Positions 1 to 12,772 of a DNA stretch of 64,000 bases are shown here, one piece after another (positions within the stretch are counted from its first letter, which is position 1; each line of letters starts with the position of its first letter). The notes beneath the pieces are model-generated. The model was not told the DNA's origin. It saw only the letters and a list, made by a program, of their open reading frames with translations, and did no database searches. The stretch is from Spirosoma taeanense (lineage in GTDB: Bacteria > Bacteroidota > Bacteroidia > Cytophagales > Spirosomataceae): contig NZ_CP053435.1 of assembly GCF_013127955.1 (NCBI RefSeq), positions 3,224,001 through 3,288,000 on the forward strand, in the 5' to 3' direction. Made by a program: the position numbers and the translations under genes.

Positions 1-3000
1 CGCCACCTGCTGTCCACTCCGGCGCAGGACGTAACGCGAGGGCTGCATAACGCCCCGGTTCGCAATAGCCCCGGCCATGCGGGCCATCGACGCGGGCGTT
101 GCCGTCAGCTGCCCCTGCCCCCAGGCCAGGCCAGAAAACTCGCTGCGGTACCGCTTGGGATACTGCGTGCTGCGATACAGCGACCGCCTGACCACAAACG
201 AGGAGTCGCGCCAGTGTTGCCGGATTCCTTTCTTTTCGACCTCTGTATGCGTATCGGCGAAGGAGTATCCCCCGACATAGTCCACGTTCATGCCCGTGGC
301 CAGATATAGGGCGGCCAACTGATCGTCCAGAGTCTGATCATTCGCCAGACGGATAAAATAAACGTTACTCGACCGGACGATGGCTTTTCGCATATCGACC
401 CGCTCTCCACAGGGTTCGCTCTCATACTGACCCCGGCGAATAATCTCTCCGCAGCTAATGGCGTAACTCGTCTTTGCCCCCTCTATACCCAGCTTGTTCA
501 GGGCGGCCGTCGCCGTCAGGATTTTAGCCGTTGAGCCGGGAGCGGTCGGATAGGTCAGAGCCAGATCCCGGTCGGTGACCAGATACGGTAAGCGAAGGCG
601 GTCCCGGTCAGATAGCTGCATTTCTTCGGGCTTCTGCAGGTTCGGCAGAGGGTGTATGGCCGAGGCCAGCACTTCGCCCGTAGCGGCATCCAGCACGGCA
701 ACAGACAGCCGTTTATCATTATATTCCGATTCGGCCAGCGCCTTTTGCAAAGCGACCTGCAGCCCTCCATCAACGCTCAGGTATACGTCGCGGTCGCGGG
801 ATTTTCGTTCGGCCACCACCCGGCTGTCCAGTCCAGCCCGCAGGGCCGGGGCCAGTTCACTGTAGTCGTAAACGGGCAAGGTCAGCGGTCGGGCAACGGC
901 AGGCGTAAACCGGTCGGCCCGGTACTTACTCGCCAGCAACGTATTCTGTCTCGGCCGGTTGTTGAACCCCCGCAAATCACTCAGGTGGGCCGCTTCGGCA
1001 AAATACCCGTTCTGCTGCGACCAGAACAAACGGGTGTTGGCATCGCCTACCCAGAAAAACAGATGCTCACCAAAAGGATAATAACGCTGGACACGCCGTT
1101 GGGTCAGCTCGGTTATTCGCTTTGCGTCAAGCCCTGTTTTACGGAGTTGCGGCAGATTGCGCCGGACCGTATCGGGCGAGCTGGTCGCCAGTACCCGACC
1201 CGCCCGGTCATAAATCGTCCCGGCCGACAGGGTTTCTGTCAGGCGGTCCAGACGGGGATTGTAGCTATAGACCGGCAGACCGTTCCGGCTCACTACCCGG
1301 GCAGGCCGGACGATATAATCATCCCACCGAACAAGCGCCACATCGGCAGCTTTCCCTACCAGCACCAGCGTACCAACCAGAAAGCCGGCAATGCCCGTTG
1401 CCAGAACGGGATCGTAGTGCTGTTCGAGATACGCGTGCTGGCGGGCTTCGCCGGGACGACTGGCAATGGCAAACACCACCCCCATGGCCGTCAGGTTGAT
1501 AATCAGCGACACCTTCCCGTAGCTCAGAAACGGAACTGAAATGCCCGTGAGGGGCAGCAACCCCAGCGAGCCACCCGCAATCAGCAGAAACTGCACACCC
1601 GTTGCCAGCGCAATACCCGCGCATAGATAAAAACTGAACGGCTGTCCGGCCCGGCGGGCGTGCAGCAGCGTCCGGTGGAGGAGGATGAACAGCAGCAGGC
1701 AGACCGACACCAGCCCCATCCAGCCGATTTCTTCGGCCAGACTCGGCAGCATCATGTCGGTATGGGCAGCCGGCATGGCGTTGGCGAAGCCTTTGCCTAA
1801 CCCCTGCCCGGCCCAGCCGCCCGTAGCGAGTGTCCAGTAACTATGCGCCAGATGGTCGCCCCCATATACGTCATTATTCCAGGGGTCGAGCCACATCGCC
1901 TTGCGGCCCGCCAGCCGGTCGCCTACCAGCGGCAGCAGGTCTCCAAAGGCAAACGCAGCCATGACCAGCACCAGCAGAATAGGCCCTTCGGCCACCAGCG
2001 CCAGCCAGCCCAGCGAGGTTGTAGCACGGGCCTGTCCGCGCCAGATCAACAGACCAATGCCTGCCGCCAGGGCAACCAGCGTAGCGCCCCAGCCGGGTAA
2101 CAGCCACAAGGCTATGCCATAAATCAGCCCCGTTGCCAACGTAATGCCGAGCGTATTGCGGGCGATGGTATAAAACAGCAGGAACGTAAAACCGATAACC
2201 AGGGCGGGCCCCATGTCGCCCAGCAGCAGGTAGAGTCCCATCAGCAGGCCTGTTCCGACGAAGACACCCGCGCTGATTCGCCAGCGCCAGCGCAGGTCGG
2301 GCAGCGTACGGATCTGTTCTTCGTGGGCCGCAAAAAAACCCGCCAGAAACAGGAGTACCAGATATTTGGTCAACTCACTCGGCTGAAACAGCAGGCCGCC
2401 AATGCGCAGGTTAACCTGAACGCCACTCCCCTCCGGCCCCGTTCCAAACGCTAATGTCAGTAAAGCCAGACCAACAGCCAGAATTAGCCACGTCCAGCCC
2501 GTCAACCGGAAGGTGCTGCGGCTGCGCAGATTCACCAGCGGATCGAACCACCAGCGCGTGTAGAAACGGCCGATGTTCAGCTGTGACAGCACCGTAAGCC
2601 CCAGCAAGCCCAGCCCGACACCCTGCACCGCCTGTATGCCGTACAACGTATCCTGCAAGGGATCCTGAATGGCCAGCAGTGTCAGCACCGACAGACCGGT
2701 GAGCAGCATCAGGACAGGCAACAGCAGGGCGTCGGGGTGAAAGTGCCGAAACGACCAGAAGATATGTACGGCCCAGAATGCCAGCAGAAACGCCCCCACC
2801 ACCAGCCAGAACGAATACCGGAATTCGGCGGGTGTGCGCACGGTAAACGCATGATCGTCTTTTAACTGGCCATAGACTGTCGAGCCAATGAGCCGCAGCG
2901 TATGCGGTCGGGCGGTAAATTCATAGTCGGCCGGGCGGTTTAGCTGGGCCACACCCCGTCGACTCCCGAACTCATAGCCGGGTTTAAGCGGTAAGACGCT

Positions 3001-3678
3001 GTATCCGGCCCCGGGTTGCAGCCCCGCGAACGTAAACCGGCCATCAGCATCCGTGCGGGCATACGTAAGCTCGTCGGGAATGGAAATATCCTCGTCCGTA
3101 GTGGGTCGGTGGCGTTTAAGCTGTACCAGCACATCGGCCATAGGCCGGGGCTCGTCCCCGCCCCGCTGAACCCGACCGGACAAGGTAAGCCCGCCCTGAC
3201 CGGCATTGGCGGGATACGACCGGGGGCGCTGCAGTTCTCTGATATAAAGAACAGAGTCGTACCCCATCTGCTGCCGCGACAGGCGCAGGCGGCTCTGGAA
3301 CTCGGGGCCGCCAATCGGGCTTTGCCAGGCCGTCGGGACGGTAATCGCAAACGCCCGTTTATTGATCGTGCCCACATTGTCCGGGGGGCCTCCTCCGGAT
3401 GGACTGCGTTCAGCCTGTTTTAGTTTGGCCGTCAGGGAGTCGGCCACCAGCGATACATCGTGCGGGTCGGTGAGGTAATTGCCCCGGCTGAGCAGCTGGC
3501 GAAGCGTGGCCGGCTTCAGACCGGCCCGCAGGTTAACCGCTGCCCCGGTCGTGTAGGCTCGTTCGACGCGATCAAGAGTGGGCTGAAGGTTACTATACAG
3601 TCGGGTAAACAGCACCAGTAATAAGCTCGTAGCGCCAAGCAGATACAGGCGTTCGTGGTGCAGCGAATTCGTTTTCAT
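1..3678 (-). CDS. SEDS (FtsW/RodA-type) glycosyltransferase fused to a penicillin-binding transpeptidase, C-terminus cut by window edge
   Basis: One continuous minus-strand frame of 1226 codons starts at the ATG at 3678 and runs off the left edge. Order: an N-terminal membrane anchor (about residues 10-28); an extracytoplasmic segment that includes a carboxypeptidase-regulatory-like beta-sandwich (about 150-245, with an ADGRFTFAGL-type core); a multi-membrane SEDS domain (about 265-780); and a class B PBP transpeptidase domain from about 800. The SEDS catalytic region is visible as AAHTDMMLPSLAEEIG, with the conserved Asp at residue 641. The PBP active-site serine is S1049 in the STAK motif and the SxN motif is S1103-N1105; the KTG motif would lie outside the window. 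SEDS proteins polymerise glycan strands and class B PBPs cross-link them, so this single protein should do both at the inner membrane. RodA and PbpA are normally separate. Gene neighbours on the same strand further on are Ser/Thr kinases, PP2C and FHA proteins. Domain identity is confident; whether it serves division, elongation or another process is unknown. Confidence 0.88.
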   Translation of the reverse strand, partial: MKTNSLHHERLYLLGATSLLLVLFTRLYSNLQPTLDRVERAYTTGAAVNLRAGLKPATLRQLLSRGNYLTDPHDVSLVADSLTAKLKQAERSPSGGGPPDNVGTINKRAFAITVPTAWQSPIGGPEFQSRLRLSRQQMGYDSVLYIRELQRPRSYPANAGQGGLTLSGRVQRGGDEPRPMADVLVQLKRHRPTTDEDISIPDELTYARTDADGRFTFAGLQPGAGYSVLPLKPGYEFGSRRGVAQLNRPADYEFTARPHTLRLIGSTVYGQLKDDHAFTVRTPAEFRYSFWLVVGAFLLAFWAVHIFWSFRHFHPDALLLPVLMLLTGLSVLTLLAIQDPLQDTLYGIQAVQGVGLGLLGLTVLSQLNIGRFYTRWWFDPLVNLRSRSTFRLTGWTWLILAVGLALLTLAFGTGPEGSGVQVNLRIGGLLFQPSELTKYLVLLFLAGFFAAHEEQIRTLPDLRWRWRISAGVFVGTGLLMGLYLLLGDMGPALVIGFTFLLFYTIARNTLGITLATGLIYGIALWLLPGWGATLVALAAGIGLLIWRGQARATTSLGWLALVAEGPILLVLVMAAFAFGDLLPLVGDRLAGRKAMWLDPWNNDVYGGDHLAHSYWTLATGGWAGQGLGKGFANAMPAAHTDMMLPSLAEEIGWMGLVSVCLLLFILLHRTLLHARRAGQPFSFYLCAGIALATGVQFLLIAGGSLGLLPLTGISVPFLSYGKVSLIINLTAMGVVFAIASRPGEARQHAYLEQHYDPVLATGIAGFLVGTLVLVGKAADVALVRWDDYIVRPARVVSRNGLPVYSYNPRLDRLTETLSAGTIYDRAGRVLATSSPDTVRRNLPQLRKTGLDAKRITELTQRRVQRYYPFGEHLFFWVGDANTRLFWSQQNGYFAEAAHLSDLRGFNNRPRQNTLLASKYRADRFTPAVARPLTLPVYDYSELAPALRAGLDSRVVAERKSRDRDVYLSVDGGLQVALQKALAESEYNDKRLSVAVLDAATGEVLASAIHPLPNLQKPEEMQLSDRDRLRLPYLVTDRDLALTYPTAPGSTAKILTATAALNKLGIEGAKTSYAISCGEIIRRGQYESEPCGERVDMRKAIVRSSNVYFIRLANDQTLDDQLAALYLATGMNVDYVGGYSFADTHTEVEKKGIRQHWRDSSFVVRRSLYRSTQYPKRYRSEFSGLAWGQGQLTATPASMARMAGAIANRGVMQPSRYVLRRSGQQVA

Positions 3679-4104
3679 TCTCCAATAAAGTCAAAAAAAG
3701 ACTGCAAGATAATCCAAGCCGAAAAAGTCATTGAAGGGCCGTATTGATCACTGGCTGGACGAGGTGGTTTAGGTCCTCAATGATGCCCGTAACCCGAACC
3801 ATATACGCACAAATAGTTTGGGGATTCCATTGATACAGCCCACCGTCCAGGCAGAGGCTGTGGACGTTCGGTTTTATAGCCGGAAATCAGACTGGGGAAC
3901 CCGGCTAATCGCTCAAATAAATTCATCCTGACAGCTAAAAATATGAGTAAATTGATAGACTAAACTGACTTTTCCGACCACATGTCAATACTGGATATAC
4001 CGGCTAAAAGATTTTTTGTTTATGCATCCTTTAAACCGGCATATTCGTGTTGCGCCTTTCCGCAATAATTCATCATCCAATCTCACTTATTAATCAATCT
4101 TTCC
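3679..4104. other. intergenic region between divergent SEDS-PBP and subtilase genes
   Basis: 426 bases that should hold the promoters of two divergent genes. I found no clean TTTG-N19-TAnnTTTG promoter. The part around 3815-3920 can be read as a short open stretch without a good start codon and resembles coding-like composition, possibly a gene remnant, but I cannot assign it. No repeat or RNA gene is evident. Confidence 0.5.
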
Positions 4105-5298
4105 ATGCGCGTCTATCGCAACCTCTTTTTGGGTTCTGCCCTGGTGTCCGGAGCCCTGTTCCTAAACGGCTGTCAGCCTCAGGATCCATCAGCAACTAAA
4201 CCCGCCACCGATGCCCTTCCGGCAGCTGCTCAGGCCCGCGTAGCGGCTCTGGATGGCCGGTACATCGTTGTGCTGAAAGAAGGTGTTTTATCTAATCTTC
4301 AACTGGAAAACCTCGATCAGGTAGCGGCTCAACTGAGCATTAATCCGGTCGAGATTTATCAGCGTTACCGGGAGGTTATTCAGGGATTTGCAGCCAAACT
4401 GACGCCTGAGCAGGTACAGTTGCTGGCCAAGAGCCCGCTGGTTGATTATATCGAAGCCGATCAGATCGTTCAGTTGGCCGAGCCCCAGAAAGAAGGTTTC
4501 CAGACAGCCGTCAGTACGCAGGAAGTTCCCTGGGGCATTACGGCGGTGGGCGGCTTCGTGAACTACACGGGTACGGCCAAAGCCTACATTATTGACACCG
4601 GTATTGATCTGGACAACCCTGAACTGAACGTTGACGCCAGCGCGGGTTTCAACGCCTTCACGACCGGACCGGATGCGGCTTCGCTCGACGATCTGAACAG
4701 CCACGGAACCCACGTTTCGGGCACGATTGCGGCCAGAAACAATGACTTTGGCGTTGTGGGTGTTGCCGCCGGGGCAAAGGTTGTTCCCGTGAAAGTACTG
4801 GGTGGCGACGGGGGCGGTACAACTTCGGGCGTAATTGCCGGGGTTGATTTCGTGGGCCGGACAGGTAAGCGTGGCGACGTAGCCAACATGAGTCTGGGTG
4901 GCGGAGCATCGACCGCTCTGGACAATGCCGTGAAGAATGCCGCCGGCAAAGGCATTTATTTCTCGGTGGCGGCTGGTAACGACGGTCTGCCCGCGAACTG
5001 GTTCTCGCCCGCCCGCGCCAACGCAACCAACATCCGGACCGTTTCAGCCCACGACGTAAACGGCGTGTTTGCTTATTTCTCGAACTACGGCAATCCACCG
5101 ATTGAAGTAGCAGCTCCCGGCGTAGCCGTCAAATCGACGGTTCCGGATGGTTATGCAACCTATAGCGGTACGTCGATGGCGGCTCCGCACTTGGCGGGTA
5201 TCATGCTGGCCAATGGCAGCGGTAAGTACTACACCAAAGGCACCGTAACCGGCGACTACGACAATACCCCCGATAAGAAAGCCTCACGTGTTCGTTAA
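4105..5298 (+). CDS. lipoprotein subtilase (S8 serine protease with I9 propeptide)
   Basis: 397 residues. The N-terminus is a lipoprotein signal with the lipobox LFLNGC (Cys23), so the protein is probably anchored in an envelope membrane. Residues about 50-125 match the inhibitor I9 propeptide (GRYIVVLKEG start, then a helix-strand pattern ending YIEADQIVQL). The mature peptidase S8 domain follows, with the triad D164 (IIDTGID), H200 (NSHGTHVSG) and S357 (SGTSMAAPH) and the oxyanion Asn292. This is the proteinase K/fervidolysin-like layout, and the length is typical for a protease without C-terminal extensions. A strong hairpin terminator follows at once, so it appears to be a single-gene unit. 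It lies between the cell-wall synthase fusion and the kinase block but on the opposite strand, and nothing ties it functionally to either. Confidence 0.93.
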   Translation: MRVYRNLFLGSALVSGALFLNGCQPQDPSATKPATDALPAAAQARVAALDGRYIVVLKEGVLSNLQLENLDQVAAQLSINPVEIYQRYREVIQGFAAKLTPEQVQLLAKSPLVDYIEADQIVQLAEPQKEGFQTAVSTQEVPWGITAVGGFVNYTGTAKAYIIDTGIDLDNPELNVDASAGFNAFTTGPDAASLDDLNSHGTHVSGTIAARNNDFGVVGVAAGAKVVPVKVLGGDGGGTTSGVIAGVDFVGRTGKRGDVANMSLGGGASTALDNAVKNAAGKGIYFSVAAGNDGLPANWFSPARANATNIRTVSAHDVNGVFAYFSNYGNPPIEVAAPGVAVKSTVPDGYATYSGTSMAAPHLAGIMLANGSGKYYTKGTVTGDYDNTPDKKASRVR

Positions 5299-5318
5299 TC
5301 AGGTAGTCTATCCTTTAG

Positions 5319-5349
5319 AAGCCCCTGGCCGCGAGGTCGGGGGCTTTTT
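5319..5349 (+). terminator. intrinsic terminator of the subtilase gene
   Basis: An AAGCCCC / GGGGCTT stem around a GC-rich loop is followed by a T run, 20 bases after the subtilase stop. Confidence 0.85.
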
Positions 5350-5446
5350 GCGTATAATTCTTCACTCCGGCTTATCTATTCTAAAATCTGTTCGGCAAAA
5401 ACAATCTGTAAACGACCCGGTTAATTTTCAAAAAAGCTCTTGTCTT

Positions 5447-6340
5447 ATGTTGTTAGACAAACGGATATCCTTTGCCTATATCTTCAATAAGGTTAAGTCT
5501 GAATTATTAATCGTCCTGATTGTCGGGTTACTGACGAACCTGATCACCCTTTATTCCCATGCTCACCTGCCCGAAATGCCGCTTACCATTCCTACTTTTC
5601 TGGGGACGGCTATTTCAATCCTGCTCTCGTTCAAAATGAACCAGTCGTACGACCGCTGGTGGGAGGCTCGGAAAGTGTGGGGCGCTATTGTTAACGATTC
5701 GCGGAGTTTCGTCATTCAGCTGCAAACCTTTCTGGATACTGACGACACCGCCATTATCCGGAAGCTGGCTTACCGTCAGATTGCCTGGTGCTATTGCCTG
5801 GGCCAGTCGCTGCGGGGGCTTAACCCGATTGAAGGAATTGAGGGATTAATTCCAGCCAATGATCTGATCGAAATTCAGAAGCATACCAACAAACCGCTGG
5901 CTCTCCTGCAACTTCACGCCCAAGACATAAAGGCATTGCGGTTAACCGATACGATCGACGTGTTCAGGCAGGTGCAGCTGGATAATACGCTCGTTCGTTT
6001 CTGCGATTCAATGGGCAAAGCGGAGCGCATCAACAGCACCATCTTTCCGTCAACCTATCGGCATTTTCTGTACTTCATTATCTATCTGTTCGTCGTTACG
6101 CTTTCTATTTCGCTCAGAAATGTGCAGATGATTTTTGAAATTCCTCTCCTGCTCGTAATTTCAGCCGCCTTTTTTCTGATCGAAAAGAGTGCTTATCATT
6201 TGCAGGACCCCTTCCGGAACCGCCCCAGCGACGTATCGGTAACGGCCATTGCCCGCACCATCGACATCAACCTGCGGCAACTCGTGGGTGATCAGGATGT
6301 ACCGGAACCGGTTAAACCCAACGAGTTTTATCTGTTATAA
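5447..6340 (+). CDS. bestrophin family anion channel
   Basis: 297 residues from the ATG at 5447 (MLLDKRISFAYIFNKV). An in-frame start at 5288 is rejected because it lies inside the upstream gene and would place the terminator hairpin in the coding region. The protein has the bestrophin/UPF0187 signature: a first membrane helix, then SFKMNQSYDRWWEARKVWG, a central helical region, and two further hydrophobic segments near FIIYLFVVTL and LLLVISAAFFLIE. The C-terminus carries the conserved DPFRNRPSDV stretch. Bacterial bestrophins form pentameric inner-membrane ion channels; eukaryotic relatives conduct chloride and bicarbonate. The stop is 29 bases before a beta-carbonic anhydrase on the same strand, so the two are probably co-transcribed. 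That pairing makes bicarbonate a reasonable, untested substrate. Confidence 0.92.
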   Translation: MLLDKRISFAYIFNKVKSELLIVLIVGLLTNLITLYSHAHLPEMPLTIPTFLGTAISILLSFKMNQSYDRWWEARKVWGAIVNDSRSFVIQLQTFLDTDDTAIIRKLAYRQIAWCYCLGQSLRGLNPIEGIEGLIPANDLIEIQKHTNKPLALLQLHAQDIKALRLTDTIDVFRQVQLDNTLVRFCDSMGKAERINSTIFPSTYRHFLYFIIYLFVVTLSISLRNVQMIFEIPLLLVISAAFFLIEKSAYHLQDPFRNRPSDVSVTAIARTIDINLRQLVGDQDVPEPVKPNEFYLL

Positions 6341-6369
6341 GCAACCAATTACGACTAACCCCATACGCT

Positions 6370-7008
6370 ATGAACCGACACTCCAACGAGTTCCTGAACA
6401 ACCTGAAACCTGCCGAAGCGCTCCAGATGCTGCAGGAAGGCAATCAGCGATTTGTCAACAAAGCGGGAACGACTCCAGACCTGCTGCAGCAGGTCAAAGA
6501 AACCAGCGGAGGGCAGTATCCGTTCGCCACCATACTGAGCTGCATGGACTCGCGCACGTCGGTCGAGCTTACTTTTAACCTCGGAATCGGGGACGTATTC
6601 AGCATCCGGGTGGCCGGTAATGTTCTGAATGAGGATATACTGGGCAGTATGGAATACGCGACCAAAGTCGTTGGCACTAAAATCATCATGGTTCTGGGTC
6701 ACACCAGCTGCGGAGCGATTAAAGGAGCCTGCGATCATGCTGAACTGGGCCATCTGACCCAACTGGTGAACAAAGTGATTCCTGCCATTGACCAGGAAAC
6801 CACCACCCAGACCGAACGGAATGGGCATAACCTCACCTTCGTGAATCACGTAGCCGAGCTAAACGTCCGCCTGGTGATGGAACAGATTACCGCCCAAAGC
6901 CCTGTGATTGCCGAACTGGTGGAAGCCGGAAGCGTGCAGGTAGTGGGAGGAATATATGATATCGCCACCGGCCAGGTTACCTTCCTGGAAGCGCCGGTAC
7001 AGGCTTAG
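6370..7008 (+). CDS. beta-carbonic anhydrase
   Basis: 212 residues. Zinc ligands and the catalytic dyad are all visible: Cys58-x-Asp60-x-Arg62 (CMDSRTSVE), His111 and Cys114 (GHTSCGAIKGA). It interconverts CO2 and bicarbonate in the cytoplasm (no signal peptide). The length and the C-terminal VVGGIYDIATGQVTFLE strand are typical of the bacterial beta class. It is the second gene of a likely two-gene unit with the bestrophin channel and is closed by a strong hairpin at 7030-7065. Assignment to the beta class is secure. Confidence 0.96.
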   Translation: MNRHSNEFLNNLKPAEALQMLQEGNQRFVNKAGTTPDLLQQVKETSGGQYPFATILSCMDSRTSVELTFNLGIGDVFSIRVAGNVLNEDILGSMEYATKVVGTKIIMVLGHTSCGAIKGACDHAELGHLTQLVNKVIPAIDQETTTQTERNGHNLTFVNHVAELNVRLVMEQITAQSPVIAELVEAGSVQVVGGIYDIATGQVTFLEAPVQA

Positions 7009-7029
7009 CGGCCTGTTTGGCTTACGCTT

Positions 7030-7065
7030 ACAAACAGCCCGGGCTAGCTGGTCCGGGCTGTTTGT
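7030..7065. terminator. bidirectional terminator between convergent carbonic anhydrase and kinase genes
   Basis: A perfect 13-bp inverted repeat (ACAAACAGCCCGG / CCGGGCTGTTTGT) with a 10-base loop sits between the convergent stops at 7008 and 7146. T-rich flanks on both strands suit termination in both directions. Confidence 0.85.
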
Positions 7066-7145
7066 ATTCTCATCAGTAGCAGCCGTAATCCACAGGTCCG
7101 ATGTCCGGGTACGGTGGCATTCGCGCGAAAAGCCGCCCTTTCGGC

Positions 7146-8459
7146 TTAGGGCATACTATCCAAAGGTACTGTCGCGGTTGAATCCGGGGTAATCTCCAGG
7201 TTCGCAGCAGAATCGGCAGGCACCTGCTCCAATGGCTCGATGTTCGTAGAAGGCGCAATTTCCTCTTTCGGGATCGTGTCAGTCTCTACCGATGTTTTCT
7301 CCTCCGAAAAAGCGGTATCGGGCGCGGCCTGGGCAGTTGTATCGGCGGCAGCGGCTGGCATACGGGCGGGCTGCGCGGGGTTGCGGTTCAGCAGATAGTA
7401 CGTCAGCAGCCCGCCTACCAGCAGAAGGGCCACCCACCACCACGGACTTACCCGCGCAGATTCTTCTGACGGCTCATAATCAAATTCTTCCGTATTGGCT
7501 CGTCTGGGTGAGGGCGCTGAGGACAGATCGAACGGTTGGGTAATGGTCGCCGGTAGGCCAACTGGCCCCACGTGGGTTTGCGGCTGTTGTGCTGACCGGT
7601 TGGCTTTCAGCTGCTCGACGTTAGCCTGGCCCAGCAATAATTCAACTTCATCCACATTCTGCATTCGATCGGCAACGCGCTTGACCAGCATGCCCCGAAG
7701 CAACTCACCCAGGCTGGGGGGCAAATAAAGCCCCGGCGCCAGCATTGGCTCGGGTGGAGCAGCCGTCAGCACCTGACTCATAAAAGCAGCCAGGCCGGTA
7801 TCGTCACGTAGCGTAAATGGAACCCGCCCAGTTAGACACTCAAACAGCACAACACCCAGCGAATAATAGTCCGTAGCCGCGCTTACCTGCCGGGGGTTGT
7901 CGAACTGCTCGGGTGACGCGTACTCATACGTCATCAATGACTGGCCCGTTCGGGTACGGGTGCTTTCGTCCGCCCGGATCTTCGCGATGCCGAAGTCCGT
8001 CAGCAAAAAGTGCAGCTCGCCACTGGCCAGCCGACGATAGAGAATATTCTCCGGCTTGATGTCGCGGTGGATGATGTGGAGCGGGTGAATGGCCCGGAAA
8101 GCCTCGGCCATCTGCAGGCCCAGTCGGATGGTTGCCGTTACGTCCAGTTGTCCCTGCGTGCGCAGCAGACTTCTGAGATCGCCACCTTCCACAAACTCCA
8201 TAACCAGATACGGCAGGGCCGCATCGAGATGAATTTCGCGCACCTTCACGACGTTCGGGTGGGCGATGCGGGTCATGATTTCCGATTCACGCTGAAACCG
8301 ATGCAGCGTGTCGGGGTCAGCGCTGAAGGCAAACTGCTTGATGGCCACCAGATCGCCCGTTGCCAGATGCCGGGCCTTGACGACGCGGGCGTTGCCGCGT
8401 CCCAGTTCGCTCAGGAGTTCGTAGCCTGGAAAATGTGTACTGGCGCTGACAGTTGGCAT
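7146..8459 (-). CDS. membrane Ser/Thr protein kinase (PknB-like), second of a tandem pair
   Basis: 437 residues. The cytoplasmic kinase domain spans about 13-285: nucleotide loop LGRGNARVV (18-26), Lys41 (VAIK), the HRD loop His131-Asp133 (IIHRDIKPEN), the DFG Asp155 and the EYASPEQF activation-loop end. The third loop glycine is replaced (Arg25). After a linker comes one membrane helix (WWWVALLLVGGLLTYYLL), then a Pro/Thr/Glu-rich tail of about 70 residues with no recognisable sensor domain (no PASTA repeats). This topology fits a transmembrane Hanks-type kinase. It is the last gene of the FHA / mini-ORF / PP2C / kinase / kinase run, 6 bases after the preceding kinase, and probably phosphorylates FHA-recognised partners. 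It shares a near-identical 116-base stretch with the neighbouring kinase. Confidence 0.94.
   Translation of the reverse strand: MPTVSASTHFPGYELLSELGRGNARVVKARHLATGDLVAIKQFAFSADPDTLHRFQRESEIMTRIAHPNVVKVREIHLDAALPYLVMEFVEGGDLRSLLRTQGQLDVTATIRLGLQMAEAFRAIHPLHIIHRDIKPENILYRRLASGELHFLLTDFGIAKIRADESTRTRTGQSLMTYEYASPEQFDNPRQVSAATDYYSLGVVLFECLTGRVPFTLRDDTGLAAFMSQVLTAAPPEPMLAPGLYLPPSLGELLRGMLVKRVADRMQNVDEVELLLGQANVEQLKANRSAQQPQTHVGPVGLPATITQPFDLSSAPSPRRANTEEFDYEPSEESARVSPWWWVALLLVGGLLTYYLLNRNPAQPARMPAAAADTTAQAAPDTAFSEEKTSVETDTIPKEEIAPSTNIEPLEQVPADSAANLEITPDSTATVPLDSMP
7834..7949 (-). repeat. 116-base near-identical segment shared by the two kinase genes (copy 1; copy 2 is 9391-9506)
   Basis: By eye there are 5 mismatches and no gap between 7834-7949 and 9391-9506, and the first 49 bases of the plus-strand reading are identical. 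The segment encodes the region from TGQSLMTYEYASPEQF through the helix ending LFECLTG. The rest of the two kinases is clearly more diverged. Confidence 0.85.
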
Positions 8460-8465
8460 GAAGCG

Positions 8466-10028
8466 TTACGGTTGGGGTTGTTCGGCCGGGGCCGGAATGT
8501 CGGGCGACTCATAGCTGACAACTTTAGCGCTGACCTGCGTCCCTCGCTGGCTATCCGGCGCCGACCTGACCTCGGTCGAGTAAGGCCCAATGTTCCTGAA
8601 ATAAACGTTTGCCGACTTAAAGATCTTGCCGTTGTCTTTAATATAGCTCACTTTAACCAGCACGTACCGAAAATTTAGCTCAGTCGGGTTACGTAACCGA
8701 AGTTTCAGTTCTTTTATCCCGCCGAAAAGCCCCGTCCGGAAACCTGCCGATTCTACTTTAACCAGTTTAGCCGCTTTCAGCATCTGCTGCCGTCGCTCTT
8801 CCAGCAAACGAGCCTCTTCGGCCTTTCTTTTAGCCTCTTCAGCCTGAATCTGCTCCGGGCTTACCTGAGCAGTTTTGGGCCCGGCATTCGGCGCAACCGA
8901 CACCAGTGGCTTATCGCCGGAATTCCGGGTTACAGCATAATATACGCCCGTGCCCACCAGCAGCACCAGCAAACCAATTAGCACCAGTTTACGCTGCCCC
9001 GTTCGGGGACGACTGATTTCAGCCGACTGTTTTGCGGGCCGTCGCGGCTGCGTTTCTTCGACCGGACTTCGATGAGCCTGCGTTGGTTTGGTCTGGCTCC
9101 CCGCTCCTAAAACCGACGCTTCTGTGGTAACCGCGCCGGTCAGGGCACTCCCCTGTTCCATCTGCAGTTGTTCCAGTTCAGCCTGTTTCAGGGCCAGCTT
9201 GACCACCGTTGGATCGTGGATTCGTTCGGCCGCCTGTTTCATCAGTAATCCGTGCAGCAGATCGGCCAGACTGGGCGGAAGCGGTCGGTCGGGGGTAGGC
9301 ACAAGCCGGGGCGGTGGCGTCGTCAGCACGGTGTTCATAAACGTAACGATGCCAATGCCCTCCCCCATCGAGAAGGGTACCTGCCCGGTCAGACACTCAA
9401 ACAGCACAACACCCAGCGAATAATAGTCCGTAGCCGCGCTCACCTGCCGGGGATTGTCGAACTGCTCGGGTGACGCGTATTCATACGTCATTAATGACTG
9501 ACCCGTCACCGTTACAGCCTGCTCGTTCAGGCGGGCGATGCCGAAATCGGTGAGCAGAAAGTGCAGCTCGCCACTGGCCAGCCGCCGAAACAGAATGTTT
9601 TCCGGCTTGATGTCGCGGTGAACAATTCCCTGCGGATGGATTACGCTCAGGGCATCAATGATTTGCAGGCCCAGCCGAATGGTTGTATTGACTGATAAAT
9701 TCCGGGTTTCGCCACCCTCTCCGGTCAGCAACTGGCGAACGCTGCCCCCTTCCACCAGATCCATGACAATGAACGGCAGTTCGGCATCAAGCCGGACTTC
9801 GCGCACATTGACAATATTAGGGTGGTTAATACGAGCCATGATCTCCGACTCGCGGCCGAATCGCCGGAGGGTTTCGGCATCGGTATTGAACGTAAAGTGC
9901 TTGATCGCTACCAGATCGCCGGTATCCAGATGCCGGGCCTTGAGCACGCGGGCGTTGCTGCGGCTGATTTCGCCCAAAATCTCATACCCAGGAAACTGCG
10001 TATTAAAGCTGACAGTTTGCATCGACAT
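8466..10028 (-). CDS. membrane Ser/Thr protein kinase with degenerate glycine loop and coiled-coil/C-terminal domain
   Basis: 520 residues. Kinase domain about 13-290 with Lys43 (AIKHF), the HRD loop His137-Asp139 (GIVHRDIKPEN), DFG Asp161 and EYASPEQF. The nucleotide loop reads ISRSNARVLK, so none of the three usual glycines is present, although all catalytic residues remain. A membrane helix (LVLIGLLVLLVGTGVYYAV, about 346-365) is followed by an Ala/Glu/Arg-rich coiled coil (about 395-425) and a roughly 90-residue extracytoplasmic domain that resembles FxLYD-type beta domains (LKLRLRNPTELNFRYVLVKVS). Its ATG shares one base with the phosphatase stop, which indicates translational coupling. 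It is probably an active kinase with an unusual ATP loop. Confidence 0.93.
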   Translation of the reverse strand: MSMQTVSFNTQFPGYEILGEISRSNARVLKARHLDTGDLVAIKHFTFNTDAETLRRFGRESEIMARINHPNIVNVREVRLDAELPFIVMDLVEGGSVRQLLTGEGGETRNLSVNTTIRLGLQIIDALSVIHPQGIVHRDIKPENILFRRLASGELHFLLTDFGIARLNEQAVTVTGQSLMTYEYASPEQFDNPRQVSAATDYYSLGVVLFECLTGQVPFSMGEGIGIVTFMNTVLTTPPPRLVPTPDRPLPPSLADLLHGLLMKQAAERIHDPTVVKLALKQAELEQLQMEQGSALTGAVTTEASVLGAGSQTKPTQAHRSPVEETQPRRPAKQSAEISRPRTGQRKLVLIGLLVLLVGTGVYYAVTRNSGDKPLVSVAPNAGPKTAQVSPEQIQAEEAKRKAEEARLLEERRQQMLKAAKLVKVESAGFRTGLFGGIKELKLRLRNPTELNFRYVLVKVSYIKDNGKIFKSANVYFRNIGPYSTEVRSAPDSQRGTQVSAKVVSYESPDIPAPAEQPQP

Positions 10029-11497
10029 TAGCGTTTCCGGGATGAATCAGGTTTGTGAATGACATTTAGTTGTATCGACGCATTGCGGAAGGTATCCTGC
10101 CGGATAACGACCTGAATAGGGGCCTCTACATCCGTAAAGAATACGTTACGCAACTCCAGCTGTTCGCTCGCTCCTGTTTCTATACCCGTTTCAAAACCAG
10201 TAATCTGCACGTTTTCCAGCCGCATGGTCTGGGTTCCGGCCACCCGAAACGCAGCATCGGGCTGCGTTGTATCAGCGGCCACGATGACGACCGGTTTCTG
10301 GTCGTTACTGCCGACCAGGGCCCGTAAGGAATCGTGCATTACCAGCGACCGGGTCAGCCGGAGGGTATCGGTTGGCCAGGTCAACTCATGGCCGGCACTT
10401 TCATAAGCCTGGCGCAGCAACGAATCCAGCAACTGCTCCTGCCCATTGTCGGGCACAGGCACCGCAGCCGCCGGCTGCGGTGCCGCCAGCGAATCCGGTT
10501 GAATAACCGAACGCTCTGGCTCCTGATTCTGGTACCAAAGCAAGGCAGCTATCACAATTACCAGTGACAGCACACCGGCCCAGATTCCGGCCCTACCCTT
10601 TGGTGCAGGTACACTGGGTTTCGACGCCAGAAGGGCTGTGCCTGGATCATTCGAAGCCACCGGGGTCGGCGGTGTTGCTTTCGCTGGTTTGCTGGCTGCT
10701 TTTGTGGATATAACCGGATCGGATTCAGTATTGTTGCGGGCCAGCACCACCGTAATATTATCGTGTCCGCCCTGCTCATTAGCCTGGCGAATCAGCTCCG
10801 TTATCTGTTCCTCAACCGGGATGGATTGCGTCAGTACCGCCAGTAACTGCGCCCGCGTCAGCATGTCGGTCAGCCCGTCACTGCACAGCAGCAGCGTATC
10901 GCCGGGCAGGAAATCGGTTTCGCCCGACTCCAGAAATTCCGGGTCGTCTATCCGTCGGATGGCCGACCCTACTTCGCGCAGAATCTCGTTCCGGCGCGGG
11001 TGCCGCATGGCTTCGGCTTCGGTCAACTGATTGGCATCTTCCCGAACGCCCACCAGCGAGTGGTCGCGGGTGAGTTTTTTGAGCGGGTCGCCCTGAGTCT
11101 CGTCCGGCCGAAAGCGGTATAACCGGGTGTCGCCGACGTGAACGAACAGCACCCGACGCGTTTCGGTATCGGCCACGGCAGCCGTGAGCACGCAGCACAT
11201 CTGGGCCAGTTTCGGGTCCTGCTGCCGCTGCTCGGCAATCTGATTGTTGGCATGCACAACGGCTTCGCGGAGCATCGTCAGCGTATCGCCGGTGGGCGTG
11301 GTCATGTAGCGCTCGATAGACGACCGGGCGATGGCGGCTGCCTGCTCACCTCCGGCATAGCCACCGACGCCGTCGATCACGACCAGCAGCGCGCTATGTT
11401 CCGTCCAGAGCGATTTGCTGATAAACGTATCCTGGTTGTCGCGTCGGCGCTGACCGACGTCGGTTTGGCCCGCGATAAGCATTGAGGTCATGAACAA
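10028..11497 (-). CDS. membrane PP2C-type Ser/Thr phosphatase with extracytoplasmic tail
   Basis: 489 residues. The PP2C/PPM domain occupies about 1-255: RRDNQD (metal Asp23), IDGVGGYAGGE (Asp42), HVGDTRLYRF, LLCSDGLTDML and GGHDNITVVLA carry the metal-binding residues. A Pro/Ala-rich linker leads to a membrane helix (WAGVLSLVIVIAALLWY). The final 170 residues contain short hydrophobic strands (MRLENVQITGFETGIETG, LELRNVFFTDVEAP) that look like turns of a right-handed beta-helix. PP2C enzymes of this kind dephosphorylate kinases and substrates of Hanks-type kinases (PstP role). It lies between the FHA gene and the two kinases, with a one-base overlap to the next gene. The alternative Met start four residues in changes little. 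Confidence 0.94.
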   Translation of the reverse strand: MFMTSMLIAGQTDVGQRRRDNQDTFISKSLWTEHSALLVVIDGVGGYAGGEQAAAIARSSIERYMTTPTGDTLTMLREAVVHANNQIAEQRQQDPKLAQMCCVLTAAVADTETRRVLFVHVGDTRLYRFRPDETQGDPLKKLTRDHSLVGVREDANQLTEAEAMRHPRRNEILREVGSAIRRIDDPEFLESGETDFLPGDTLLLCSDGLTDMLTRAQLLAVLTQSIPVEEQITELIRQANEQGGHDNITVVLARNNTESDPVISTKAASKPAKATPPTPVASNDPGTALLASKPSVPAPKGRAGIWAGVLSLVIVIAALLWYQNQEPERSVIQPDSLAAPQPAAAVPVPDNGQEQLLDSLLRQAYESAGHELTWPTDTLRLTRSLVMHDSLRALVGSNDQKPVVIVAADTTQPDAAFRVAGTQTMRLENVQITGFETGIETGASEQLELRNVFFTDVEAPIQVVIRQDTFRNASIQLNVIHKPDSSRKR

Positions 11498-11524
11498 ACG
11501 ATAAATTGCGGTTCGTTGATACGC

Positions 11525-11608
11525 CTACCGGGGCAGGTTCTGAAAATGCCGGACCAGCAGCAATAGAACAAACGCGCCGACCAGCCCGGCAAACAGAAAA
11601 TCGAACAT
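11525..11608 (-). CDS. 27-residue single-pass membrane mini-protein in the kinase operon
   Basis: An ATG at 11608 opens a 27-codon frame ending TAG at 11525. It encodes MFDFLFAGLVGAFVLLLLVR followed by HFQNLPR. The sequence is one hydrophobic helix flanked by an acidic residue on one side and basic residues on the other. It begins 6 bases after the FHA stop and ends 27 bases before the phosphatase ATG, exactly filling the gap in a tightly packed operon. I recognise no family. Such mini-proteins can act as membrane adaptors, but no function can be claimed. The frame is short enough to be accidental; its position and helix-like composition are the arguments in favour. Confidence 0.5.
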   Translation of the reverse strand: MFDFLFAGLVGAFVLLLLVRHFQNLPR

Positions 11609-11614
11609 AACCGG

Positions 11615-12619
11615 TTACAGATTACTTTGAAATGAAAGGGTAACGATACCATTGAGCAGAATCTGCGCCTGCCGGGGCAGTTCGGTCCACTGCGGACTGG
11701 CGGGTTCGCTGCGGGTCATGACCTGCTCATTAACGCGGGTCTCATTCCGACTGAAGGACGCAATCTCAAACCGCTGGGCCGCTTCGTTGTACCGAATGCG
11801 GGCGTGCGGATTTGAGACGTAGGGCGAGTCCAGCCGCAGATAATTGGAAAATGCCTGATTGTCGGCTTCCATCCGCGCAACCACTACCTCCCGATCCTGC
11901 ATCCAGTACGTTTCCTCTTTGTCTTTATCGGCCAGGTAACAGTCGATCCGCGCCAGCGCTGATGGATGCGCAGTTTTATGCGCGATCGTACCCGTTGGCG
12001 CTGCAGGAGCAGCCGACTGCGGTTTTTCGGCATTCAGCAGCCGGGTATCCATTTTGATGGCAAAGGCCCCGGCCTCCCGAAAATCAATGTGCTGAAAGGC
12101 CCCCACGCTGAGGTCCATTTTATCGTACAGGTTCGTGTTTTTGACCTTACGCGTGGCTTTTACGTTACCCAGTGAGGCATTCTCGGACGCGCGCGGACTA
12201 TCAAACCCGGCGCCGGAGAGCGAACCAATTACGTCGATATCACCGGGGCCAATCGTTCGGCCGGCGAATTCGGTGCCCGGTCCGAACTTGAAATACCAGT
12301 GTGTTGAAACCGGTGGGACTTCATCTTCCGGACGTTTACGCTCCTTCAGCCGTTCCGTAAACGCCTTCACCGCTTCGTTCACAATGACGGGTAGTGCCGC
12401 CAGCCGTTCCTTATACGTATCGGGGTGCAGAATAATGATGTAATGTGCGTTGAACAGCAGGCTCGTGCCGAAGCTCTCGCGCTCCAGCGACGTCTCGAAA
12501 CAGGCAATCAGCTCCTTCAGGATACGTTCGTTAGTGACCGTCTCCGGCTGTTTTGTCCGTTCTTTCGGCACAAGCAGATTGCTTAGCTGATCCAGAAAAC
12601 GGTTGGGTTGCTTCTCCAT
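11615..12619 (-). CDS. FhaA-like FHA domain protein
   Basis: 334 residues from the ATG at 12619. The frame is open to a TTG at 12658, but a promoter-like TATACTTG (12656-12663) covers that codon, so the ATG is preferred. The N-terminal region (about 1-100, with HYIIILHPDTYKERLAALP) resembles the DUF3662/FhaA N-terminal domain of actinobacterial FhaA. A variable middle contains an Ala/Pro linker. The C-terminal 110 residues form a forkhead-associated domain: VSNPHARI gives the Ser-x-x-His motif and NETRVNE stands for the usual Asn-Gly-Thr, while the first conserved Gly-Arg of FHA is reduced to Arg. FHA domains bind phosphothreonine, so it should read the output of the adjacent kinases. It is the first gene of the signalling operon. 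Confidence 0.82.
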   Translation of the reverse strand: MEKQPNRFLDQLSNLLVPKERTKQPETVTNERILKELIACFETSLERESFGTSLLFNAHYIIILHPDTYKERLAALPVIVNEAVKAFTERLKERKRPEDEVPPVSTHWYFKFGPGTEFAGRTIGPGDIDVIGSLSGAGFDSPRASENASLGNVKATRKVKNTNLYDKMDLSVGAFQHIDFREAGAFAIKMDTRLLNAEKPQSAAPAAPTGTIAHKTAHPSALARIDCYLADKDKEETYWMQDREVVVARMEADNQAFSNYLRLDSPYVSNPHARIRYNEAAQRFEIASFSRNETRVNEQVMTRSEPASPQWTELPRQAQILLNGIVTLSFQSNL

Positions 12620-12772
12620 TGGAACGAAAACACGTAAGGCTCTATACAAAACAGCCAAGTATACCGCATTTCCGGAACTTTCCGGCGAAATCGGGAAAGA
12701 AGCGAGTTTCCGGCCCTAAAACTGACTAACCGTTTCCAGGACCGGAAGCGATACGGTCAGCTATGTAACGCC

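Follow-up and report, generated by a model that had tools for sequence, protein, structure and literature searches.

A Putative Third Peptidoglycan Synthase Linked to FHA, PP2C and Ser/Thr Kinase Genes in Spirosoma taeanense and Its Relationship to the Actinobacterial rodA-pbpA Operon

Introduction

Control of cell wall polymerisation by Ser/Thr phosphorylation has been studied mainly in Actinobacteria and Firmicutes. A locus of Spirosoma taeanense, a member of the Bacteroidota, raises the question of whether a related arrangement exists in Gram-negative bacteria. The window, a stretch of 64,000 nucleotides (contig NZ_CP053435.1, positions 3,224,001 to 3,288,000), begins with a gene block that encodes an FHA protein (FHA1), a PP2C phosphatase, two Hanks-type kinases (KinA and KinB) and a SEDS protein fused to the transpeptidase of a penicillin-binding protein (PBP); a second FHA gene (FHA2) lies just outside. 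The initial annotation proposed that this block is a counterpart of the actinobacterial FHA-PstP-RodA-PbpA-kinase cluster. That proposal stood for the SEDS half, which groups with the operon RodA (support of 100/99), and, by way of its relatives, for FHA1; it did not extend to the PASTA domain, which is absent, and for the PbpA lineage the evidence was only suggestive. Our conclusion is that the block probably represents a third peptidoglycan synthase, in addition to RodA with its PBP2-type gene and an FtsW-type SEDS protein, and that it comes with its own phospho-signalling set, which would gate its activity.

The actinobacterial system is the obvious standard of comparison. The sections of PMC6554272 that concern it describe pstP, rodA, pbpA and a PASTA kinase gene as linked throughout the Actinobacteria, in a conserved locus with roles in wall synthesis and division. 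In the relevant part of PMC3989709, PbpA is a substrate of PknB, and FhaA acts on MviN after phosphorylation by PknB.

Results

Composition of the gene block

The FHA, PP2C and two kinase genes were predicted to be contiguous on the minus strand, and the open reading frames were found at those positions, in agreement with Pfam. FHA1 (11615..12619, minus strand, ATG start; the longest frame has a TTG start at 12658) has an FhaA_N-like N-terminal region and a C-terminal FHA domain (Pfam FHA, 1.6e-5). The PP2C phosphatase (10028..11497, minus strand; 489 amino acids; Pfam PP2C_2, 7e-12) has a C-terminal tail, and its gene overlaps by 1 base with that of KinA (8466..10028, minus strand; 520 amino acids; Pfam Pkinase, 2e-42), which is followed by KinB (7146..8459, minus strand; 437 amino acids; Pfam Pkinase, 9e-45). 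The predicted fusion, on the same strand beyond three plus-strand genes, was also confirmed: FTSW_RODA_SPOVE (5e-41) and Transpeptidase (1e-16) matches lie in a single frame (1..3678, minus strand), which holds the first 1226 of 1334 codons and is open at the window edge. The remainder lies at L006:11674-12000, and the full protein of 1334 amino acids is encoded by one open frame at L006:11674-15678 (minus strand). Downstream of it is FHA2 (L006:10688-11581, minus strand; 297 amino acids). The order of transcription is FHA1, PP2C, KinA, KinB, the site of the plus-strand trio, fusion, FHA2.

In the 5.72-Mb window genome, PF00069 detected three kinases above its cut-off, two of which are in the block, and PF00498 detected one FHA protein, which is FHA1; FHA2 scored under the filter. 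The presence of kinase and FHA genes at the block exceeds chance. No FHA, PP2C or kinase match was found at the genome's two separate SEDS loci with custom profiles at E 1e-3.

Within the fusion, the SEDS domain precedes the transpeptidase domain, and the N-terminal region matched CarboxypepD_reg below the cut-off. The SxxK (S1049 and K1052), SxN (S1103 and N1105) and KTG (1267-1269) motifs and Asp641 of the HTD motif, in the protein's own numbering, were invariant in 14 fusions. When 15 diverse fusions were compared, S958, K961, S1007, N1009, K1142, G1144 and Asp572 were invariant and T1143 was nearly so. We take the SxxK, SxN and KTG residues and the SEDS Asp to be catalytic. Assembly error does not explain the fusion, since 25 of the 27 matching genomes of the genus had a stop-free frame of at least 1322 amino acids; the other two were a contig fragment of 707 amino acids in G027 and a shorter frame of 1238 amino acids in G032. 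FHA1 of G032 (G032:C1:7383235-7384220) reads in two frames; these two genes represent either a decaying copy or assembly errors.

The fusion missed the curated cut-offs for both RodA (TIGR02210, 123 bits; cut-off 336.7) and FtsW (TIGR02614, 154 bits; cut-off 337.5). The genome's own RodA met the TIGR02210 cut-off (338), whereas its own FtsW-type protein fell below its cut-off (242), so that the values for the fusion prove little. Apart from the fusion, the window genome encodes two or more standalone SEDS proteins, one a RodA above cut-off beside a PBP2-type gene, the other an FtsW by best score. All 14 other genomes examined had at least two standalone SEDS genes plus the fusion; in G541 one of these lies in contig-end pieces.

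The fusion was missing from nine of 36 genomes of the genus, two of which are less than 85% complete, and this distribution says that it is an accessory synthase, neither the main elongation nor the main division enzyme. The same distribution, like the plasmid location of the block in Spirosoma oryzicola, would suit a back-up synthase that helps the cell to survive beta-lactams or other stress on the wall and whose stress sensor is the set of phospho-genes. Against solved structures the fusion profile also matched PBP2a (6e-13); in that search, PbpA (4e-14) was the nearest match to the PBP part and ranked slightly above it, a difference of rank that proves nothing by itself. We consider a back-up role rather unlikely.

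VAIK, HRD and DFG motifs are present in KinB. A TxTG activation loop and the catalytic Lys, HRD and DFG are retained in both kinases, and the glycine loop of KinA is altered (SRSNAR). KinA (346-368) and PP2C (301-324) have one clear hydrophobic segment each and KinB has a weaker membrane helix, as judged by eye; none was seen in FHA1 or FHA2. Pfam detected no PASTA domain in either window kinase or in the kinase of the acidobacterial locus L172, whereas Nocardia PknB does carry PASTA. KinB scored 213 bits against the PknB_PASTA model NF033483 (cut-off 450) and PP2C scored 184 bits against the Stp1 model NF033484 (cut-off 230). Among solved structures, PknA was closest to KinA, and the top match of PP2C was another bacterial PP2C, with PstP lower; both are statements of rank and not proof. 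FHA2 of the window genome scored 15.9 bits for the FHA domain (cut-off 20.7), and all 15 members had an FHA match at E 10 or lower.

Two partner proteins at other loci carry additional domains. The acidobacterial PP2C at L172:4076-5620 (plus strand) has a tail that Pfam assigns as a right-handed beta helix (8e-11), possibly, at a guess, a wall or sugar sensor that replaces PASTA. FHA2 of a locus that groups with Rhodothermota (L165:12434-13801, plus strand) has an N-terminal HEPN_Swt1 domain (1.5e-25).

Phylogeny of the components

In a first SEDS tree, from which seven SEDS pieces were dropped, 36 fusions were separated from 28 standalone SEDS proteins with a support of 100. For comparison with Actinobacteria, operons were taken from public plasmid-collection records of Nocardia, Tsukamurella, Nonomuraea and Arthrobacter. 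The Nocardia operon consists of fhaA, fhaB, pstP, rodA, pbpA, pknA and pknB, with FhaA_N at 1e-38 and PASTA present; all seven genes were matched in Nocardia, Tsukamurella and Nonomuraea, and all but fhaA in Arthrobacter. SEDS references were FtsW of Rhodococcus ruber and Tsukamurella, two SpoVE proteins and the RodA of Sphingobium. The fusions were thinned to 20 for the SEDS and PBP trees with actinobacterial rows and for the approximately unbiased (AU) tests. Two long-branched rows (L258 and L267) were left out of the resulting 56-row SEDS tree, of the AU tests and of the SEDS tree used to place the Rhodococcus fusions described below, a SEDS protein of Monoglobus was left out of the AU tests, and the Arthrobacter RodA, which reads in two frames in L326, was excluded.

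The 56-row tree placed the 20 fusions, four actinobacterial RodA proteins and the FHA-linked SEDS protein of Monoglobus on one side of a split with a support of 100/99. Three of the four RodA proteins came from an operon that was seen, and the fourth, from Embleya, came without a shown operon context. On the other side were the genome's own RodA and FtsW-type proteins, the actinobacterial FtsW, which serves as an internal control, and SpoVE. When Monoglobus was removed, the fusions and operon RodA were grouped at 100/99.8. The AU tests rejected the placement of operon RodA with the genome's own FtsW-type clade, which includes four acidobacterial rows (p-AU 2.5e-8), with the clade of its own RodA (p-AU 7.3e-4), with actinobacterial FtsW (p-AU 4.6e-5) and with SpoVE (p-AU 3.0e-5); the choice of these groups was made with the tree already in view. 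On this phylogenetic evidence, the SEDS half of the fusion is of one lineage with the RodA of the actinobacterial pstP-rodA-pbpA-pknA-pknB operon.

The PBP halves of 36 fusions were likewise separate from 22 standalone PBPs; standalone rows of more than 1000 amino acids, together with L302, L306 and L319, were excluded by a length and motif filter. PbpA joined the fusions with a support of 92/84 when class A PBPs were omitted; in the tree that included them, long branches meet. Descent of the PBP half from the PbpA lineage is therefore put no higher than suggestive.

An FHA domain was present in every FHA1 homologue from 58 loci that lie outside the class of the window genome, and 42 of these proteins match FhaA_N (E 0.01 or lower, best 4.9e-6). 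The window FHA1 family aligned with these homologues over both domains (hhalign E 1.1e-27), and the N-terminal regions also matched separately. Judged from these alignments, FHA1 is a homologue of FhaA by transitive homology through its relatives. AlphaFold models had a predicted local distance difference test (pLDDT) score of 74 for FHA1 and 76 for FHA2, and in Foldseek searches with both models FHA-domain entries came first among the 50 matches listed, which included no FhaA N-terminal entry. A sequence search of window FHA1 against solved structures gave one weak match only. Sets of FHA, PP2C and kinase genes are found with type VI secretion systems too, and the block could in principle be a regulator set of that FHA/PppA/PpkA style; given that the FHA1 homologues are FhaA-type and that the constant partner is a wall synthase, this is highly improbable.

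The PP2C and fusion trees were compared over 31 shared rows, with L168 left out. The two trees had 18 of 28 splits in common, compared to at most two in 500 shuffles.

Conservation and linkage

Searches of 36 genomes of the genus detected the fusion in 27 and FHA1 in 26. The two genes were jointly present or absent in 35 of the 36, both being missing from the same nine, among which G025 and G026 are those less than 85% complete. The sole genome with the fusion and without FHA1 was G027, which is 80% complete, is in approximately 1030 contigs and holds a piece of the fusion. The order FHA1-PP2C-kinase(s)-fusion-FHA2 was contiguous on one strand at all 16 orthologous loci compared (L069-L084), with two kinases at 12 and a PP2C/kinase overlap of 1 or 4 bases at 12; at five of the loci FHA2 continues past the end of the stretch examined. 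A further locus (L088) runs from FHA1 through the fusion to a contig end. The main loci of G001, G008, G015, G017, G022, G032 and G035 fall outside the gene-order comparison. On plasmid unnamed7 of Spirosoma oryzicola (L316, 136.7 kb), which corresponds by length to the contig of L081, the block is complete and lies near two-component and TonB-receptor genes; the record's own annotation reads FHA, PP2C, kinase, kinase, FtsW/RodA/SpoVE, FHA.

Three genomes of the genus have second, diverged copies of the gene set (L085, L086 and L087), and those at L085 and L086 have FHA2 and the kinase genes in reverse orientation. L087, the second copy in G011, grouped with Pedobacter-type sequences in the SEDS, PBP and PP2C trees. 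Because both the PP2C and the fusion have this placement, the trees point to the L087 set having moved together as a unit.

In the family sample, the fusion was found in 29 of 121 genomes and in seven of 36 genera. Outside the genus, 18 of 21 family loci were examined, and at 15 of the 18 all members were present with the fusion adjacent to the FHA, PP2C and kinase genes; the exceptions are L130, which is truncated at a contig end, L131, with no FHA1 match, and L129, with no FHA2 match. The fusion reached E 1e-60 in 15 of the 395 genomes sampled across the phylum; only two candidates were scored per genome, and the count may be an underestimate. Outside the family, all seven loci from the same class had the kinase, FHA1, PP2C, fusion and FHA2 genes. 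Among five loci from other classes, FHA2 was present at five, an FHA1 match at four, PP2C at one and a kinase match several kb upstream at two. A second copy in one other-class genome (L167) has only a kinase, approximately 4.3 kb from the fusion.

The initial annotation envisaged a similar module with fused wall enzymes in a phylum distant from Actinobacteria, and the module reaches beyond Bacteroidota. Of 338 relatives detected in named genomes, ranked by a Rhodothermota-like first row, the best 80 loci comprised 65 from Acidobacteriota, 12 from Bacteroidota, two from Rhodothermota and one from Verrucomicrobiota; some of these are the same genomes as in the genus, family and phylum samples. 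Neighbours were detected with custom profiles (E 1e-3, within 6 kb, same strand). FHA1 was found at 55, PP2C at 52 and a kinase at 52 of the 58 loci whose upstream flank spans at least 5.5 kb, FHA2 was found at 58 of the 65 whose downstream flank spans at least 1.2 kb, and all four partners were found at 39 of 51. Linkage of the fusion to kinase and FHA genes, which the initial annotation presumed, was thus recovered in the genus, the family and the named genomes. In an Acidobacteriota sample, in which two candidates were also scored per genome, the fusion model reached 1e-60 in seven of 297 genomes. No phage-borne copies of the fusion were found at a query coverage of at least 80%. The contig L246 is from an Opitutaceae metagenome-assembled genome; its fusion nests inside Acidobacteriota, from either transfer or misbinning.

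The three plus-strand genes that separate KinB from the fusion in the window encode an S8 protease (4105-5298), a bestrophin (5288-6340) and a beta-carbonic anhydrase (6370-7008), all as assigned by Pfam. They were missing between the kinase and the fusion at all 17 other loci of the genus that were examined (L069-L084 and L088). The trio (4105..7008) is an insertion that splits the block in the window genome and is outside the module. The adjacent bestrophin and carbonic anhydrase genes may be a bicarbonate-handling pair, a guess that comes from the families concerned.

Discussion

The composition of the block suggests that wall synthesis by the fusion may be switched by phosphorylation. Autophosphorylation of the kinases would take place on the TxTG activation loop, and their target would be either the synthase itself or a cytosolic partner. 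FHA1 and FHA2 would bind phosphothreonines of the activated kinases or of the phosphorylated partner, and in this way hold or gate the synthase, and the PP2C phosphatase would reset the switch. The fusion would set polymerisation and cross-linking at a ratio of 1:1.

Several results weigh against a phosphorylation-gated synthase that shares descent with the actinobacterial operon, and the first group concerns linkage. In G006 the block is split, with FHA1-PP2C-kinases located approximately 80 kb from fusion-FHA2; L216 and L246 carry the fusion alone, with no FHA, PP2C or kinase match; and L162-L164 have no PP2C or kinase match nearby. Together with the three unrelated genes that intervene in the window genome, the G006, L216 and L246 loci are what would be expected if the wall synthase and the kinase, phosphatase and FHA genes were two unrelated units that lie side by side and do separate jobs. 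That explanation is improbable in view of the same gene order in Bacteroidota and Acidobacteriota, the congruence of the PP2C and fusion trees, the joint absence from nine of 36 genomes of the genus and the presence of FHA2 on the far side of the fusion at 58 of 65 loci. Kinase types differ among the Spirosoma, Pedobacter and Acidobacteriota lineages (HRD or HGD), and a fixed kinase-substrate pair is doubtful. Since kinase types vary by lineage whereas FHA1, PP2C, the fusion and FHA2 mostly persist, the kinases look exchangeable.

The second group concerns descent. Because the SEDS tree is unrooted, the grouping is a split as opposed to a rooted clade, and few reference sequences went into it. 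When class A PBPs are included, PbpA and the fusions stay apart in the best PBP tree, although joining them costs only 0.16 log-likelihood units (p-AU 0.49); when they are omitted, PbpA with a PBP2-type clade (L299, p-AU 0.11), which contains the PBP beside RodA, or with another standalone clade (L290, p-AU 0.24) was not rejected. Attempts to recognise FhaA_N directly in window FHA1 failed, the domain being reached through homologues instead: there was no direct Pfam FhaA_N match, hhalign of two profiles (A6 and A2) against Nocardia FhaA aligned the FHA domain alone, with a weak match for the window profile, and no FhaA N-terminal entry was among the best 50 of 539 Foldseek matches of the FHA1 model. 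Of six FHA1 homologues viewed singly, one passed the Pfam FhaA_N cut-off. The signalling families might have been recruited independently in Actinobacteria and in the Gram-negative phyla, in which case the likeness of the clusters would be convergent. The absence of PASTA, the different place of the kinases in the gene order and the PBP trees, in which other placements of PbpA were not rejected, would fit such a history. It sits poorly with the 100/99 split in the SEDS tree, in which the actinobacterial FtsW is the internal control, with the AU rejections, even allowing for groups named after the tree was seen, and with FhaA_N in 42 of 58 FHA1 homologues, and we regard it as an improbable account.

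A wider reading, which we offer tentatively and at a little below an even chance, is that FHA, PP2C, SEDS, PBP and Ser/Thr kinase genes form an old transferable unit of Actinobacteria, Clostridia, Acidobacteriota, Rhodothermota and Bacteroidota. The SEDS and PBP genes would have been fused once in the Gram-negative phyla, giving a phosphorylation-gated third class of SEDS synthase for a process in the wall distinct from both standard elongation and standard division.

With the block, genomes that already possess RodA and an FtsW-type protein gain a third lineage of SEDS proteins. A homologous accessory unit in non-pathogenic Gram-negative bacteria would make it possible to study, through deletion mutants and in vitro assays, how kinase, FHA and phosphatase act on a defined 1:1 synthase in a system free of PASTA sensing, where loss of the genes would probably not be lethal.

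Comparison with known systems

The actinobacterial operon and natural SEDS-PBP fusions are already known; in searches of the open-licence literature, no fused, PASTA-less version that crosses phyla was found, nor any paper on a SEDS-PBP fusion linked to FHA or kinase genes outside Actinobacteria. Engineered RodA-PBP2 fusions are active, as described in the pertinent parts of PMC6207328 and PMC10449877, and PMC10449877 in one passage mentions natural single-open-reading-frame SEDS-PBP fusions, citing the Rhodococcus RHA1 genome. Rhodococcus plasmid fusions (WAY2 and R. pseudokoreensis) also combine SEDS and transpeptidase in one protein. They differ in length (941-946 amino acids), had no FHA, PP2C or kinase match in stretches of 19-20 kb, and have a SEDS half that lies on a long branch on the RodA/FtsW side of the tree. 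They were considered as a missing link and rejected on the grounds of gene context and tree position. In the clostridial Monoglobus (L329:5539-8524, plus strand), an FHA gene directly precedes SEDS and PBP genes and the SEDS protein falls on the fusions' side of the tree; here the two genes are unfused, the branch is long and no kinase or PP2C is annotated within the 13 kb stretch.

The canonical RodA/PBP2 and FtsW/FtsI pairs belong to the same two enzyme families as the fusion, in which the active-site motifs are retained. The fusions differ from these pairs in that their SEDS and PBP halves each cluster apart and in that their genomes also carry standalone SEDS genes; the fusion of the window genome also misses the curated RodA and FtsW cut-offs, a weak point of distinction given that the genome's own FtsW-type protein does so as well.

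Compared to the actinobacterial fhaA-fhaB-pstP-rodA-pbpA-pknA-pknB operon, in which rodA and pbpA are separate, the block encodes SEDS and PBP as one protein, is without PASTA, has its kinases before the fusion or at the block ends, has an FHA2 of 297 amino acids as opposed to an FhaB of 155, and is accessory and in one case plasmid-borne. In common with that operon, the block has an FhaA-type protein first, a second FHA protein, two kinases, a PP2C with a membrane segment (a putative counterpart of PstP), SEDS before a class B PBP, and a SEDS part of the same lineage.

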